From positions 124,001 to 188,000 of the forward strand of contig NZ_JZUE01000001.1 in NCBI RefSeq assembly GCF_000969605.1: DNA of 64,000 nt, given 5' to 3'. The position numbers were made by a program, and so were the translations under genes. Shown in pieces: positions 15,778-31,543 of the stretch (position 1 is its first letter; each line of letters begins with the position of its first letter). The DNA comes from Aquincola tertiaricarbonis. GTDB lineage: Bacteria > Pseudomonadota > Gammaproteobacteria > Burkholderiales > Burkholderiaceae_C. The notes under the pieces were generated by a model that was not told the origin of the DNA, made no database searches, and saw only the letters and a program-made list of their open reading frames with translations.

Positions 15778-17504
15778 ACCGCAGCACCTCCCGCGCCCTG
15801 GCGGCGCTGCTGCTGGCGCTGTGCGTGCCGGCCGCCCTGGCCGCCGGGGGCGACGTGGGCCAGGCCGCCAAGCAGCCCACCAACTGGATCGCCATCGGCA
15901 TGTTCTCGGTGTTCGTGATGGGCACGCTGTGGATCACCAAGTGGGCTGCTTCGCGCACCCATTCGGCGGCCGACTTCTACACCGCCGGCGGCGGCATCAC
16001 CGGCTTCCAGAACGGCCTGGCCATCGCAGGCGACTACATGTCGGCGGCCTCGTTCCTGGGTATCTCGGCCGCGGTGATGGCCACCGGCTACGACGGCCTC
16101 ATCTATTCCATCGGCTTCCTGGTGGGCTGGCCCATCCTCACCTTCCTGATGGCCGAGCGGCTGCGCAACCTGGGCAAGTTCACCTTCGCCGACGTGGCCG
16201 GCTACCGCTTCCAGCAGACGCCCATCCGCGCCTTCGCGGCCTCGGGCACGCTGGTGGTGGTGGCCTTCTACCTGATCGCGCAGATGGTGGGCGCGGGGCA
16301 GCTCATCAAGCTGCTGTTCGGGCTGGACTACTGGATGGCGGTGGTCATCGTCGGCGCGCTGATGATGCTGTACGTGCTGTTCGGTGGCATGACGGCCACC
16401 ACCTGGGTGCAGATCATCAAGGCGGTGCTGCTGCTGTCGGGCGTCACCTTCATGGCCTTCATGGTGCTGAGCCAGTTCGGCTTCAGCCCGGAGCGGCTGT
16501 TCTCGCGGGCGGTGGACATCCGCACCACCTTCGCCACCAACGCCGGCAAGGCGCCGCAGGAGGCCGCCACCATCGGCGAGGCCATCATGGGCCCGGGCGG
16601 CTTCGTGAAGGACCCGATCAGCGCCATCAGCTTCGGCATGGCGCTGATGTTCGGCACCGCCGGCCTGCCGCACATCCTAATGCGCTTCTTCACCGTGCCC
16701 GATGCCAAGGAGGCCCGCAAGAGCGTGTTCTGGGCCACCACCTGGATCGGCTACTTCTACGTGCTGATCTTCATCATCGGCTTCGGCGCCATCACCCTGG
16801 TGCTGACCAACCCCGAGTTCGCGGACGTCGCCACCGGCGTGATCCACGGAGGGGCCGGTGCTTCCAACATGGCGGCGGTGCTGGTGGCCAAGGCGGTGGG
16901 CGGCAATGTGTTCTACGGCTTCATCTCGGCGGTGGCCTTCGCCACCATCCTGGCGGTGGTGGCCGGGCTGACGCTGTCGGGTGCGTCGGCGGTGTCGCAC
17001 GACCTGTATGCCACCGTGTTCAAGAAGGGCAATGCCGACAGCAAGGCGGAGCTGCGCGTCTCGCGCATCACCACGCTGGCGCTGGGCGTGGTGGCGGTGG
17101 TGCTGGGCATCGCGTTCGAGAAGCAGAACATCGCCTTCATGGTGTCGCTGGCCTTCGCCATCGCGGCCTCGGCCAACTTCCCGGTGCTGTTCATGAGCGT
17201 GCTGTGGAAGGACTGCACCACCCGCGGCGCGGTGATCGGCGGCTTCCTGGGGCTGGTGTCCTCGGTGGGCCTGACGGTGGTGTCGCCTTCGGTGTGGGAG
17301 GTGACGCTGGGCAATCCCAAGGGCTCGGCGCTGTTCCCCTACGCCTCGCCGGCGCTGTTCTCCATGACCATCGGCTTCGTCGGCATCTGGCTGTTCTCGC
17401 TGCTGGACCGCAGCGCCCAGGCCGCGCGGGAGCGCGATGCCTTCCCGGCTCAGCGGGTGCGCTCGGAAACCGGCCTGGGCGCGGCCACCGCCTCCGGCCA
17501 CTGA
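15774..17504 (+). CDS. actP: Cation/acetate symporter ActP
   Basis: 576 residues, an SSS-family sodium:solute symporter with an N-terminal signal-like segment ([10 protein letters not shown]) and about 13 membrane helices. Characteristic pieces are [30 protein letters not shown] and [15 protein letters not shown], all close to E. coli ActP. It imports acetate and other short carboxylates such as glycolate with Na+. Translationally coupled to the DUF485 gene. No acs gene follows. The last 55 bp overlap the 3' end of the convergent diguanylate cyclase gene. Confidence 0.93.
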
Positions 17505-18634
17505 CCGAAGCGCGAGGCGAGGAAGGACGAAGACGGGGCTTCGGCCCCGTGGTCCATCGGCTCGCCGGCCACCACCACGCGGTCGCGGCCCAGGTGCTTG
17601 GCGCGATACAGCAGGCGGTCGGCGCGCTGTATCCAGTCGGCCGCATCGCGCACGTGGCGGTCCAGCGCCACCACGCCGAAGCTGGCCGTCACCGGCTGGT
17701 CGTCCAGCAGCGGATGGCGGTGCAGCGACAGGCGCAGCCGCTCCATCACCTCGCGCGCCTGGGCCGCATTGGTGCCGGGCAGCAGCACGCCGAATTCCTC
17801 GCCGCCGTAGCGGGCCGGCATGTCGATGCCGCGCAGCCCCAGCCGCAGCAGCGCCGCGAAGCGCTGGATGGCCTGGTCGCCGGCGGCATGGCCCCGGCTG
17901 TCGTTGATGCGCTTGAAGTGGTCGATGTCCACCAGCACCAGCGTGGCCACCGGGCCGCCGCGGCCGAAGCGCCGGAACTCCGTCTCCACCAGCGCCATCC
18001 AGTGCGCGCGGTTGAACAGGCCCGACAGCGCATCGTGGCGGCCCAGCCGGGCCAGGTGTTCCCGCTGCGCCTGCAGCTTGGCCAGCAGGCGGTGGGCGGT
18101 GATGCCCACCGCGGCCGGATGCAGCAGCAGCAGCGGGGCGCAGGCCAGCACGTCCAGCATGGTGCTGGCCGGGTGCCAGCGCCAGCCGAAGGCCAGCACG
18201 CCCAGGCCGATGCCGGCCGCATGGGCGGCCATGCCGCGCAGCAGCTGGCGGGCACCGGCGGCGATGGCGCTGTCCATGCTCATCATCGACAGCATCAGCA
18301 GGCTGGGCAGGGCGCTGAAGCCGATGGCCACCGTCCATGCGCCGCCGGCCAGGTGGTCCAGCACCATGTTGCGGCGCTCGGCCGCATGCGGGTCGGCCGC
18401 GCGGCGGGCCAGCCGCCAGCCAATGTGCGGCCAGAGGAAGCCGTGCAGCGCCGGCCCCAGCCAGAACCACCAGGGCGCCGCCTGCTGCCACATGGCGCAG
18501 CCCAGTGTGAGGAAGCCCAGCGCCAGGCCCACCATGCGCCCGCGGTAGCTGGCGCGTGCAAAGCCCAGCCGCCGGCCGTGCTGGACGGCGGCGTCTTCGA
18601 GGGGCCCGGGAAGTGAGGTCGACATGGTCTGCAT
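17450..18634 (-). CDS. MASE2-domain diguanylate cyclase
   Basis: 394 residues from the ATG at 18634, or 391 from 18625. An N-terminal MASE2-type membrane region (about 25-200, six hydrophobic helices; opening [13 protein letters not shown]) is followed by a GGDEF domain. The active site [11 protein letters not shown] is canonical and the I-site RGID lies five residues before it, so it should synthesise c-di-GMP with feedback inhibition, like E. coli AdrA/DgcC. It faces away from a c-di-GMP phosphodiesterase gene across a 240-bp divergent region. A strong sigma-28-type promoter sits about 30 bp upstream of the start. Confidence 0.9.
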
Positions 18635-18663
18635 CCCGCGGCAGGGGCCGTCGGGCTGCCTGT

Positions 18664-18690
18664 TTATCGGCCGGCAGCGGCGGTGCTTGA
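18664..18690 (-). promoter_or_regulatory. Probable sigma-28 (FliA) flagellar promoter
   Basis: On the bottom strand TCAAGCAC (18690-18683), an 11-base spacer and GCCGATAA (18671-18664) match the flagellar sigma-28 consensus: a perfect -10 and the TCAAG-type -35 seen in Pseudomonas and Burkholderiales. It would start a transcript about 20 bases before the cyclase start codon. Confidence 0.6.
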
Positions 18691-18876
18691 CGCCACCGCC
18701 CCGCCTCAAGCCGGGCGCGCGGCAGCCGATACGCCCTGCTGGGCCCCGGTGGGCCGAAGCAGTACCCGATGACCGCACCGATCGCCTTCCATGAGTGCCG
18801 CGGCCGCCCGGCCGGCCAATGGCTTGTCCGCCCGCGCCCGGCGCGGCCCGCCGCCTGACGCCGCGCTGCCGCACCG

Positions 18877-20571
18877 ATGCCGTTGCCGACCCCGCCAGAA
18901 GCCGCGCTGCTGGATGCGATGCTGGACGAGCTGCCCGTGGGCGTGTGCCTGCAGCAGGCCGACGGCCGCGTGCGGCTGATGAACCGCGTGATGGCCGAGC
19001 TGCTGGGCCGGCCGCTGCCCGCGCTGCTGGGCCAGGTGCCCTTCGAGCTGCTGGGCCGCTCGCCCAGCCATGCGCAGCGGCTGCGGCGCGAGTTCCTGCA
19101 GCAGTTCGAGGCCGGCGGCCTGCGCGAGCGCGAGCTGACCGTGCCCGATGGCCTCCGCGTGCGCACGCTGGTGGTCAACAGCCGGCGGGTGCAGCTGCTG
19201 GGCCAGACGCTGATGCTGTCCACCGCGGTGGACGTCACGGAACGCAAGCGGGTGGAGCTGGACCTCACCCGCCGCGCCTTCCATGACGAGCTGACCGGCC
19301 TGCCCCACCGCGGGCTGATGCAGGAAATCGTGGGCGCCGCCGTGCGCCAGCACCAGCGCGGCGGGCACTTCGCGCTGGTGGTGGTGGACCTGGACAACTT
19401 CAAGCAGATCAACGATTCCTACGGCCATGCGGTGGGCGACAGCCTGCTCAAGGCGGTGGCCGGCCGCATCGGCCAGTGCATCCGCGGCGGCGACACCCTG
19501 GCCCGGCTGAACGGCGACGAGTTCCTGCTGCTGCTGGACCCGCTGGGCGACCCCGAGCATCTGCCGCCGCTGCTGGACCGCCTGCTGCAGGCGCTGAAGC
19601 AGCCGTTCGACATCGACGGCCGCCAGCTGCTCACCTCCGCCTCGCTGGGGGCCAGCCTGTTCCCGCTGCATGGCGACAGCTACGACTCGCTGCGCCGCTG
19701 CGCGGATGCCGCGATGGGCCGTGCGCGCGAAGGCCGGCGCGGGAGCGCCGCGGTGTTCGACGAAGCCATGGGCCGCGCCATCGACCGCCGCATGGACACC
19801 GAGCAGCGGCTGCGCACCGCGGTGCGCGAGCGGCACTTCCGCGCCGCCTTCCAGCCCAAGGTGTCGCTGCGCAGCGGGCAGGTGGTGGGCTTCGAGGCGC
19901 TGGTGCGCTGGGTGGAGCCCGACGGCACCGTGCATGCGCCCGGCGCCTTCATCGCGCTGGCCGGCCAGCTGGGGCTGCTGGACGAACTCACGCGCCTGAT
20001 GGTGGACGAGGTGGCGCTGCACCTGCCGGCGCTGCAGGCGCATTTCGGTGCGCAGGTGTCGGTGAGCATCAACGTGTCCGCCCGCCAGGCGGCGGATGCG
20101 GCCTTCATCCAGGGCCTGTGCGACCAGCTGGCCGTGGCCGGCATCGCGCGGCATGTGGTTATCGAGCTGACCGAGGATGCCCTGCTGGCCACCCAGCGCT
20201 TCCAGCAGGAGGCGCTGCCGCAGCTGCGCGAGGTGGGCGTGCGGGTGTCGATCGACGATTTCGGCACCGGCTATTCCTCGCTGGCCACGCTGGCCGACCT
20301 CACCGCCGACGAGGTGAAGGTGGACCGCGCCTTCATCACCGCCATCCATGAGCGGCCGCGCAGCCAGGGCATCCTGCGGGCCATCGAATCGCTGTGCACC
20401 GCGCTGGGCATCGAGGTGGTGGCCGAGGGCGTGGAAACCGCGCAGGAGCTGGCCTACCTGCGCCAGCACACCGGCATCGGCCTGGTGCAGGGCTACCTGT
20501 TCGCGCGGCCGCAGTTCATCGAGGCGCTGCTGTCGATGCCTCCGGAAGGTGTCACCATCGGGGTTTGCTGA
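18877..20571 (+). CDS. PAS-GGDEF-EAL c-di-GMP phosphodiesterase
   Basis: 564 residues, no membrane helix, so cytoplasmic. Domains: PAS (about 5-125, ending in DVTERKRVE), GGDEF-like (about 130-295) and EAL (about 315-560). The GGDEF motif is degenerate (RLNGDEF, Gly to Asn) although an RGGD I-site remains, so this half is probably regulatory, for example GTP or c-di-GMP binding. The EAL half keeps FEALVRW, the metal-binding DDFGTGYSSL and the EGVET loop, so hydrolysis of c-di-GMP to pGpG is expected. Divergently transcribed from the MASE2 cyclase, suggesting opposing control of one local c-di-GMP pool. Confidence 0.9.
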   Translation: MPLPTPPEAALLDAMLDELPVGVCLQQADGRVRLMNRVMAELLGRPLPALLGQVPFELLGRSPSHAQRLRREFLQQFEAGGLRERELTVPDGLRVRTLVVNSRRVQLLGQTLMLSTAVDVTERKRVELDLTRRAFHDELTGLPHRGLMQEIVGAAVRQHQRGGHFALVVVDLDNFKQINDSYGHAVGDSLLKAVAGRIGQCIRGGDTLARLNGDEFLLLLDPLGDPEHLPPLLDRLLQALKQPFDIDGRQLLTSASLGASLFPLHGDSYDSLRRCADAAMGRAREGRRGSAAVFDEAMGRAIDRRMDTEQRLRTAVRERHFRAAFQPKVSLRSGQVVGFEALVRWVEPDGTVHAPGAFIALAGQLGLLDELTRLMVDEVALHLPALQAHFGAQVSVSINVSARQAADAAFIQGLCDQLAVAGIARHVVIELTEDALLATQRFQQEALPQLREVGVRVSIDDFGTGYSSLATLADLTADEVKVDRAFITAIHERPRSQGILRAIESLCTALGIEVVAEGVETAQELAYLRQHTGIGLVQGYLFARPQFIEALLSMPPEGVTIGVC

Positions 20572-20584
20572 CGAGGGAGTTGCC

Positions 20585-21298
20585 ATGGCCGTACGAGCAC
20601 CTCGCATCGCCGCCATCGGGTTCCTGGCCGCCCTGCTGGCCATCACCGCACCGCCTTCGCGGGCCGAGCACGAGACCCGGGAGCTGTCCGGCTTCGACCG
20701 GCTGGAGCTGCGCACCGGCGCACGCATCGTCATCCGGCAGGGCATGCCCGAGGGCATCGAGATCGAGGCCGGGCCCGAGGTGCTGCCGCTCATCGGCACG
20801 CGGGTGGACAACCGCACGCTGCACATCCAGGACGAACAGACCTTCGAGCCGCAGGCCGCCCGCGTCACCGTCACGCTGCGGCAGCTGCGCGGGCTCAGCA
20901 CGTCGGGGCTGACGCAGGTGTCGGCCAGCGGCCTGTCGGGCGGCGAGCTCAGCATCACCGGCGGCGGCGGCAGCGCCATGCGGCTGCAGCGGCTGGAGGT
21001 GGGACGGCTGCGCGTGGCCCTGGGCGGCAGCAGCCGGCTGGTGCTGGACGGCAGCGCGCGGGAGCTCACCGCGCAGCTGGGCGGCAGCGCCGGGCTGGAC
21101 GCCGGCCGGCTGGATGCCGGCGCGGCGATGGTGCAGGGCGGTGGCAGTGCCCGGGCCACGGTGTGCGTGCGCTCGTCGCTCAACGTGGCCATCGGCGGCG
21201 CGGCCAGCGTGGGCTACTACGGCATGGTCAAGCCCACGGTGGCCATCGGCGGCACGGCCACGCTGAAGGCGCTGGGCCCGATGCCGGCCCTGCGCTGA
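20585..21298 (+). CDS. Secreted DUF2807 (GIN-domain) protein
   Basis: 237 residues with a signal peptide ending in SRA before EHETRELSGFDRLELRTGA. The body is a Gly/Ser-rich right-handed beta-helix typical of DUF2807/GIN domains, in which short repeats such as SGLTQVSASGLSGGEL form stacked strands. The family is periplasmic or surface-exposed with unknown function, often adhesin-like. It starts 13 bp after the phosphodiesterase stop with GAGGGAG upstream, so it is probably co-transcribed with it. Confidence 0.85.
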   Translation: MAVRAPRIAAIGFLAALLAITAPPSRAEHETRELSGFDRLELRTGARIVIRQGMPEGIEIEAGPEVLPLIGTRVDNRTLHIQDEQTFEPQAARVTVTLRQLRGLSTSGLTQVSASGLSGGELSITGGGGSAMRLQRLEVGRLRVALGGSSRLVLDGSARELTAQLGGSAGLDAGRLDAGAAMVQGGGSARATVCVRSSLNVAIGGAASVGYYGMVKPTVAIGGTATLKALGPMPALR

Positions 21299-30097: not shown

Positions 30098-31543
30098 ATG
30101 CCGCCGGCCGGCCGTAAGCTGTTCGTCGGCGCCCGCGTGCGCCGCCTGCGGGAGCAGCGTGGCCTGAGCCAGCAGCTGCTGGCGCAGCGGCTGGGCCTGT
30201 CGCTCAGCTACGTGAGCCAGATCGAAAATGACCAGCGCCCGGTCACGGCCGCGGTGCAGCTCAAGCTGGCCGAGGTGTTCGGCGGGGATGCGGCGCAGTT
30301 CCCCGAGCACGAGCACCAGCGCCTGCTGGCCGAGCTGGATGCGGCGCTGAACGACCGCACGCTGTCCGCCGCGCCGGTGCCTGCGCCGCAGCTGGCGCGC
30401 ATGGTGGCGCAGGCGCCCGAACTGGTGCAGGCCTTCCTGGCGCTGCACCAGCGCCACCTGCGGCTGCAGGAGGAGCATGCGCAGACCATCGACCGCTTCT
30501 ACGGCGAGCTGGGCGGCGACCACCTGCGCGGCCCCATCGCGCCGCCGCCGCACGAGGCGGTGCGCGAGCACTTCAACAAGCTGGAGAACTACGTCGACGT
30601 GCTGGACCGTGAGGCCGAGCTCATCGCGGCGCAGCACCAGGTGCGGCCCGGCCGCCGTGCCGCAGCGCTGCGGGCGCTGCTGCAGCAGGCCTGCGGCGTG
30701 GAGGTGGTGGCCGCCGCCGGCATGGGCGCCGACGGCAGCCTTCGCCGCTACGAGCGCGCCCGCCGGCGGCTGCATGTGCCGGCGCACCTGAGCGACGCCC
30801 AGCAGGCCTACCAGATGGCCACGCAGTACGCGCTGCTGGCCTGCCGCGAGGCCATCGACGCGGTGGTGGGCGCCGCCGGCTTCGCCGATGCCGACACCCG
30901 CGCGCTGGCCCACCAGGGCCTAGCGCACTACTTCGCCGGCGCACTGATGCTGCCTTACCGCACCTTTCTGGCCGCGGCGCGCACGGTGCGCTACGACATC
31001 GAGCTGCTGGCGCAGCGCTTCCAGGTCAGCTTCGAGACGGTGTGCCACCGCCTGAGCACCCTGCAGCGGCCCGGTGAGCGTGGCGTGCCGGTGTACTTCG
31101 TGCGGGTGGACCAGGCCGGCAACATCAGCAAGCGGCAAAGCGCCACCGCCTTCCACTTCGCCCGCCACGGGGGCGCCTGCCCGCTGTGGCAGGTGCACGA
31201 GGCCTTTACCCAGCCCGGCCGCATCCTCACCCAGGTGGCCGAGATGCCCGACGGCACGCGCTTCTTCGGCATCGCCCGCACCATCGAGCGCGGCGGCGGC
31301 GGCTACCTGGCGCGTCGCAAGCTGTTCGCCGTCGGCCTGGGCTGCGAGCTGGTGCATGCGCACGAACTGGTGTACGCCGATGGCCTGAACCTGGCCGCGC
31401 CGCAGCCGGTGGTGCCCATCGGCCCCGGCTGCCGCGTGTGCCCGCGCGCGGACTGCGTGCAGCGGGCCTTTCCGCCGGCCGGCAAGCCGCTGGTGGTCGA
31501 GACGGACAGCGAATCGCTGGTGTCCTACCGCTTCGATCAATGA
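30098..31543 (+). CDS. Short-chain fatty acyl regulator (XRE HTH, ScfR/RamB-like)
   Basis: 481 residues from the ATG at 30098; a GTG at 30074 would add eight residues. The N-terminus is an XRE-type helix-turn-helix (VRRLREQRGLSQQLLAQRLG, then SYVSQIENDQRP). The middle holds an ImmA/IrrE-like metallopeptidase-related domain with degenerate motif (LAHQGLAHYFAGALMLPY), and the C-terminus a Cys-containing domain with GPGCRVCPRADCVQRAF. This architecture is that of regulators responding to acetyl/propionyl-CoA-type metabolites, which fits control of an operon that yields propionyl-CoA. It is divergent from mmsA and probably binds the repeats between them. Confidence 0.88.
   Translation: MPPAGRKLFVGARVRRLREQRGLSQQLLAQRLGLSLSYVSQIENDQRPVTAAVQLKLAEVFGGDAAQFPEHEHQRLLAELDAALNDRTLSAAPVPAPQLARMVAQAPELVQAFLALHQRHLRLQEEHAQTIDRFYGELGGDHLRGPIAPPPHEAVREHFNKLENYVDVLDREAELIAAQHQVRPGRRAAALRALLQQACGVEVVAAAGMGADGSLRRYERARRRLHVPAHLSDAQQAYQMATQYALLACREAIDAVVGAAGFADADTRALAHQGLAHYFAGALMLPYRTFLAAARTVRYDIELLAQRFQVSFETVCHRLSTLQRPGERGVPVYFVRVDQAGNISKRQSATAFHFARHGGACPLWQVHEAFTQPGRILTQVAEMPDGTRFFGIARTIERGGGGYLARRKLFAVGLGCELVHAHELVYADGLNLAAPQPVVPIGPGCRVCPRADCVQRAFPPAGKPLVVETDSESLVSYRFDQ

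Follow-up and report, generated by a model that had tools for sequence, protein, structure and literature searches.

Candidate divergent FliA-type promoters between a MASE2-GGDEF diguanylate cyclase gene and a gene for a probable c-di-GMP phosphodiesterase

In the window analysed here, a stretch of 64,000 nucleotides (64 kb) of the Aquincola tertiaricarbonis genome, a sequence resembling a sigma-28 (FliA) promoter precedes a gene for a diguanylate cyclase. This raises the question of whether the synthesis of c-di-GMP, a signal that usually represses motility, might belong to the late flagellar regulon, as the first-pass annotation of this DNA had proposed. The answer depends on what the putative promoter faces, on how it compares with the flagellar promoters of the same genome, and on whether it recurs elsewhere.

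The divergent region and the genes it faces

The features of the locus are the following.

17450 to 18625, minus strand: MASE2-GGDEF diguanylate cyclase, 391 aa, with an alternative ATG at 18634 (from Pfam, open reading frames and motifs)
18635 to 18876, no strand: divergent intergenic region of 242 nt containing both candidate promoters (from the sequence)
18664 to 18690, minus strand: sigma-28 (FliA)-type promoter TCAAGCAC-N11-GCCGATAA (from the sequence, a core-pattern match and matrix ranks)
18706 to 18732, plus strand: second, divergent sigma-28-type promoter TCAAGCCG-N11-GCCGATAC, facing the PAS-GGDEF-EAL gene (from a scan for sigma-28-like sites)
18877 to 20571, plus strand: PAS-GGDEF-EAL protein, 564 aa (from Pfam, motifs and the best solved relative, 5m3c)
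20585 to 21298, plus strand: DUF2807 gene (Pfam DUF2807, 113.9 bits, scanned from 20600)

Reading of the bottom strand confirms the element with the -10 box and the spacing that had been described for it: positions 18690-18683 are TCAAGCAC, 18682-18672 an 11 nt spacer and 18671-18664 GCCGATAA. The cyclase has two candidate starts, ATG 18634 and ATG 18625, and the 30 bases said to separate the box from the start codon correspond to the former, which sits 29 nt past the box. A longer frame that would enclose the site (GTG 18874, 474 aa) was rejected because the MASE2 domain begins at residue 27 of the version starting at ATG 18625; it is also disfavoured since the extension would cross the divergent region. 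The octamer GCCGATAA is unremarkable by itself, its single copy in the 64 kb window being near chance level (mean of 0.44, with at least one copy in 37 of 100 shuffles), and it becomes remarkable through its combination with the -35 box at this spacing.

The predicted cyclase gives Pfam scores of 80.8 bits for MASE2 and 130.2 bits for GGDEF and has a GGEEF motif at residue 274 and an I-site RxxD, in the form of RGID, at residue 265. All the parts expected of an intact c-di-GMP synthase, as which it had been annotated, are thus present. Enteric DgcC/AdrA shares this MASE2-GGDEF domain plan and is driven by CsgD within the biofilm programme, unlike the gene described here with its FliA-type box. 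The cyclase gene is probably monocistronic because the 3′ end of a convergent symporter gene (plus strand, ending at 17504) overlaps its own 3′ end.

What had been overlooked is the copy on the plus strand. The two sites have the exact sequence TCAAGC-N13-GCCGATA in common and their -35 boxes lie back to back, 15 bp apart; the plus box has C as its final base and is separated by 144 nt from the ATG of the PAS-GGDEF-EAL gene. The sequence supports an object larger than the one first noted, a putative divergent pair of FliA promoters for the cyclase and a probable phosphodiesterase. Downstream of the plus-strand box, the leader of the PAS-GGDEF-EAL gene also contains an ATG frame of 29 codons (18769-18858, plus strand), which might encode a leader peptide or be due to chance.

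The PAS-GGDEF-EAL protein scores 214.6 bits for EAL, 137.0 for GGDEF and 30.7 for PAS. NGDEF replaces GGDEF at 212 and, with the signature motifs of EAL phosphodiesterases as the yardstick, EALVRW (340), DDFGTGYSSL (460), KVD (481) and EGVE (from 517) are kept, so that the protein is probably a c-di-GMP phosphodiesterase. The DUF2807 gene begins 13 nt after its stop codon and is possibly part of the same transcript. Since the partner gene encodes an EAL domain with these motifs, the outcome of expressing both genes may be turnover of c-di-GMP and not a simple rise. The first interpretation, which considered the cyclase alone, was in this respect incomplete.

The sigma-28 promoters of this genome and the scores of the two sites

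Two FliA-class sigma factors, on contigs C22 and C12, lie above the TIGR02479 cut-off. Two sets of flagellar genes lie on these contigs, and FliA, MotAB and FlhAB each occur twice; in the stretches read, flhDC, two fliC-like stretches and cheYZ are on C22 and fli/flg structural genes on C12. With the E. coli K-12 flagellar proteins, motA, cheY, fliC and fliS were located on C22, all of them preceded by TCAAGT-N13/14-NCCGATAA in the following boxes.

own motA box: TCAAGTGA-N11-ACCGATAA
own cheY box: TCAAGTCC-N11-TCCGATAA
own fliC box: TCAAGTCG-N12-TCCGATAA
own fliS box: TCAAGTCA-N12-GCCGATAA

The octamers of both new sites are spaced by N11, as in motA and cheY (N12 in fliC and fliS), and their -10 boxes, GCCGATAA on the minus strand and GCCGATAC on the plus strand, agree with the flagellar NCCGATAA. 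The -35 box is TCAAGC in both, and the genome's own flagellar and chemoreceptor sites have TCAAG(T/C). The 29 nt from the minus box to the ATG resemble the distances of about 29-55 nt seen for cheY, fliS and the sites on C10, C47, C20 and C31.

The pattern TCAAG-N15/16-CCGATA matches 18 times in the 6.32 Mb genome and its reversed control once. Flagellar (4) or chemoreceptor (7) genes follow 11 of the 18 matches, and two are the divergent pair itself. The seven chemoreceptor sites (C4:175456, C5, C7, C10, C20, C31 and C47) are found ~0.6-1.5 kb upstream of a signalling domain on the same strand; at C4:175456 a frame of 155 aa, named Cache-like by eye, comes before this domain. The remaining five matches are not followed by a flagellar or chemoreceptor gene: one precedes a GGDEF cyclase gene (C4:158003), three others precede genes for what by eye are a sensor-kinase-like protein on C14, a small PAS-like protein on C15 and the C1:435454 protein, and a further match is on C33. 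By coordinates, three of the genome's 54 GGDEF matches each lie downstream of a site from this set of 18. These 54, together with 51 matches to chemoreceptor domains, make up a rich c-di-GMP and chemotaxis repertoire. On C15 a FliA-type box (L136, C15:30307, plus strand) is found just upstream of a short frame which by eye resembles photoactive yellow protein, and light sensing inside the flagellar regulon would then be possible.

A matrix made from 11 of the genome's own flagellar and chemoreceptor sites gives the plus site 21.3 (first in the window) and the minus site 21.2 (second), the next score being 15.3, but because seven of these 11 sites were collected with a pattern fixing the core, the values are inflated and partly circular. 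The best score in 100 Markov-simulated windows averaged 14.3 with a maximum of 18.4, and about four sites scoring at least 18 with this matrix are expected from the Markov background per whole genome. Three smaller sets were also used: four own sites from the C22 cluster, four flagellar sites of G274, a genome of another genus, and five E. coli K-12 class 3 promoters, with E. coli fliC left out because the scan yielded no site for it. The G274 set was likewise found via the core pattern, whereas the E. coli set is independent of it. All three matrices put the minus site at the top of the window, and the plus site comes second with the own-cluster and other-genus matrices and third with that of E. 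coli. In the same order of matrices, the expected number of sites at least as good per 64 kb is 0.06, 0.02 and 0.04 for the minus site, estimates based on no more than 3, 1 and 2 hits in a simulated sequence of 3 Mb, and for the plus site 0.13, 0.04 and 0.68. The sigma-28 call made in the first-pass annotation for the minus-strand box thus holds at the sequence level against all three promoter sets.

Could both sites nonetheless have arisen by chance in GC-rich DNA, with ordinary housekeeping promoters driving the two genes? The five of 18 matches that lack a flagellar or chemoreceptor gene would fit such an explanation, as would the poor conservation of the box over homologues described below. 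Against it, two scores of ~21 in a single 242-nt region, each facing its gene, would be a very unlikely coincidence, and the agreement between the own-genome, other-genus and E. coli matrices, together with the paired occurrence, makes pure chance unlikely. An ordinary sigma-70 promoter was rejected as the alternative, since no sigma-70-type site was found in 18500-19000 using a consensus that suits GC-rich genomes poorly. We consider a chance origin of both sites highly improbable.

It also seems quite improbable that the minus site works alone, with the plus copy being accidental or decayed and the PAS-GGDEF-EAL gene relying on another promoter in its 144-nt leader. The plus site does score below the minus site with three of the four matrices, its C-terminated box is farther from the ATG than most sites are, and the expectation of 0.68 sites of this quality per 64 kb with the E. 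coli matrix is not negligible. However, the common core is retained exactly, and within ~251 nt just 0.0002-0.003 sites of at least this quality are expected, depending on the matrix. The terminal C is also seen in four of the seven own chemoreceptor training sites and a long leader in the own fliC gene, whose site is ~236 nt from its ATG, and no sigma-70-type site that could serve in its place was found nearby.

A different question is which sigma factor would use the two promoters. With two FliA-class genes above the cut-off and two flagellar gene sets, the C12 factor from the second flagellar cluster might be responsible instead of the C22 one encoded near motAB, cheYZ and flhDC. The grammar of the boxes matches the C22 cluster genes, however, and in 100 kb of C12 scores above 16 were obtained only at 30209 (TCAAGTCG/GTCGATAG, 19.4) and at one site preceding a chemoreceptor gene (17.7), which makes the C12 factor an unlikely candidate.

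Homologues of the cyclase and other GGDEF genes of the genus

A MASE2 relative (E ≤ 1e-10) was found in at least 61 of the 399 genomes of the family sample, the present one included, with at most eight candidates scored in each. The upstream scan covered 29 of the other 60 MASE2-bearing genomes, a score of 18 or more being taken as a strong box. Such a box was absent in 28 of the 29, and the sole exception was the homologue L154 in G274 with a score of 20.9, the next best reaching 13.8. Among 13 near-full-length homologues, five of whose genomes are also in the set of 29, there was no strong box (best score 14.1). Broad conservation of the box as a member of the FliA regulon was thus not observed (1/29 and 0/13).

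The L154 protein is 40% identical to the cyclase over the MASE2 part. Its box, TCAAGCAT-N11-GCCGATAA, lies 132-162 nt before the candidate starts, in the gap that separates the cyclase gene from a transporter-like gene ending upstream of it. In G274 the pattern matches 26 times, against none for the control, and the box is also present at the cheY, flagellin, fliD-like and fliS-like genes, as named by eye, so that this genome is a credible instance of a FliA-type box at a MASE2 gene.

FliA is over the cut-off in 28 of the 30 genomes checked, including G001, the one other genome of the genus, and its absence therefore does not explain the missing boxes. Eight of the 29 genomes (G274, G441, G435, G293, G361, G067, G216 and G047) show a clear excess of the core pattern, with at least 12 matches against no more than three in the control, and all of these but G274, seven of the eight, are without a strong box at the MASE2 gene. 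Since G274 is the only enriched genome with such a box, the link cannot be regarded as a trait of the whole family. In view of the FliA and enrichment counts, the idea that boxes are missing because the genomes of the closest homologues lack the FliA system could be true for some genomes at most; in genus g40 the numbers of pattern and control matches were 7/1, 6/6, 4/1, 2/2 and 4/3.

No MASE2 cyclase was found in G001, where all 75 candidates were scored, and no close PAS-GGDEF-EAL relative among the 11 of 101 candidates scored there. In G017, no MASE2 gene was recognised in 4.7 kb beside a longer PAS-GGDEF-EAL relative (56%), and a related-locus search of genome contigs yielded no relative. 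The C33 match is kept in G001 but, as the whole neighbourhood is conserved, it provides no useful footprint. Weak conservation alone is not evidence against function: the upstream regions of bifA in Pseudomonas putida and P. aeruginosa have no significant similarity (PMC5300878), and provide a precedent for a poorly conserved box.

Boxes of this kind do occur before other GGDEF genes of the genus. The C4 cyclase gene, whose box is at L135 (C4:158003-158029, minus strand), has a relative in G001 (L212) with 57% identity over 636 aligned residues. Both are preceded by TCAAGC-N-CCGATA with equal spacing, at 279 and 48 nt from the respective starts, within flanking DNA that appears unrelated by eye. 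A further G001 site (L177, G001:C1:164512-164538, minus strand) consists of TCAAGCCG-N12-GCCGATAA and lies 33 nt before a candidate start of another GGDEF protein. Taken together, these sites indicate that FliA-type boxes before GGDEF genes recur in the genus.

A model for flagellar control of c-di-GMP turnover

We have combined these data in a model in which divergent FliA promoters place a diguanylate cyclase and a probable phosphodiesterase in the late flagellar regulon, a reading that we think likely from the sequence. FliA would become active late in flagellar assembly, and RNA polymerase carrying it would transcribe in both directions from the 242-nt region. The leftward transcript, with a short leader, would encode the membrane-bound MASE2-GGDEF cyclase, and the rightward one the PAS-GGDEF-EAL protein, which most likely would hydrolyse c-di-GMP. 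Synthase and hydrolase would then be made alongside flagellin, motor and chemoreceptors and might form a c-di-GMP turnover module in swimming cells. A change in the input to the MASE2 or PAS domain could shift the net level of c-di-GMP and thereby put a brake on the motor or prepare the cells for attachment. The sequence itself shows the two boxes, their match to the genome's own flagellar promoters, the intact cyclase and EAL motifs and the FliA genes; transcription by FliA, its late timing, the enzyme activities, the net direction of the change and the action on motility are all parts that we infer. For the late timing, the hook/FlgM checkpoint is carried over from enteric bacteria; an E. 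coli FlgM query had no match in the genome stretches searched.

Control of c-di-GMP genes by FliA is known from several systems, which we compare here as far as the available parts of the cited papers go. Loss of fliA in P. putida lowers the activity of three promoters 2- to 3-fold, those of PP1144, PP3711 and morA, which encodes a putative cyclase (PMC5026340), and a cyclase influenced by FliA is consequently not new, morA being partly FliA-dependent. Like the present candidates, these promoters precede genes for GGDEF/EAL proteins, but their dependence is partial, with high FliA-independent basal expression, and no divergent cyclase/hydrolase pair is described in the text consulted. In E. 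coli, the hydrolase PdeH (YhjH; PMC5635695, PMC8669469, PMC4183435) and the PilZ protein YcgR (PMC4183435, PMC8669469) depend on FliA. Both are c-di-GMP genes of the FliA (class 3) set, and the yhjH -10 box is GCCGATAA (PMC4183435), but they are a hydrolase and a receptor, whereas the locus described here includes a synthase, putatively paired with a GGDEF-EAL protein. The phosphodiesterase genes of P. putida BifA (PMC5300878, PMC5026340) and P. aeruginosa PA4367 (PMC4866697) are at least partly FliA-controlled; each is a single gene for which the accessible text describes no paired cyclase. FlgZ is FliA-dependent and also involves sigma-54 (PMC6093933). E. coli NfrB, which is controlled by c-di-GMP, co-regulated with flagella by FliA and able to impede motility, is also comparable, but it is a glycosyltransferase effector, and the part of that report consulted (PMC8669469) does not present DgcJ, its cyclase, as driven by FliA.

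The FliA-controlled c-di-GMP genes in the literature examined, as far as it was accessible, are thus mostly those of hydrolases, receptors and effectors, with one putative and partially dependent cyclase, morA. Titles and the beginnings of abstracts in the openly licensed literature revealed no divergent synthase/hydrolase pair on FliA boxes. The present locus would differ by its combination, in one short divergent region, of a predicted synthase gene, whose FliA box is near-perfect, with a gene for a probable hydrolase.

It is conceivable, although we would put this somewhat below an even chance, that the late flagellar sigma factor of this lineage runs a dedicated c-di-GMP turnover module and that further GGDEF proteins, namely the C4 cyclase, its G001 relative and the second one in G001, belong to its regulon. 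Completion of the flagellum would then set up the means of its own stopping, whereas E. coli makes only a hydrolase, PdeH, which keeps cells swimming. Since a single fragment of 242 bp carries both candidate promoters, the model of the divergent pair is directly testable. If it is true, c-di-GMP turnover in newly motile cells would be started by flagellar completion itself.
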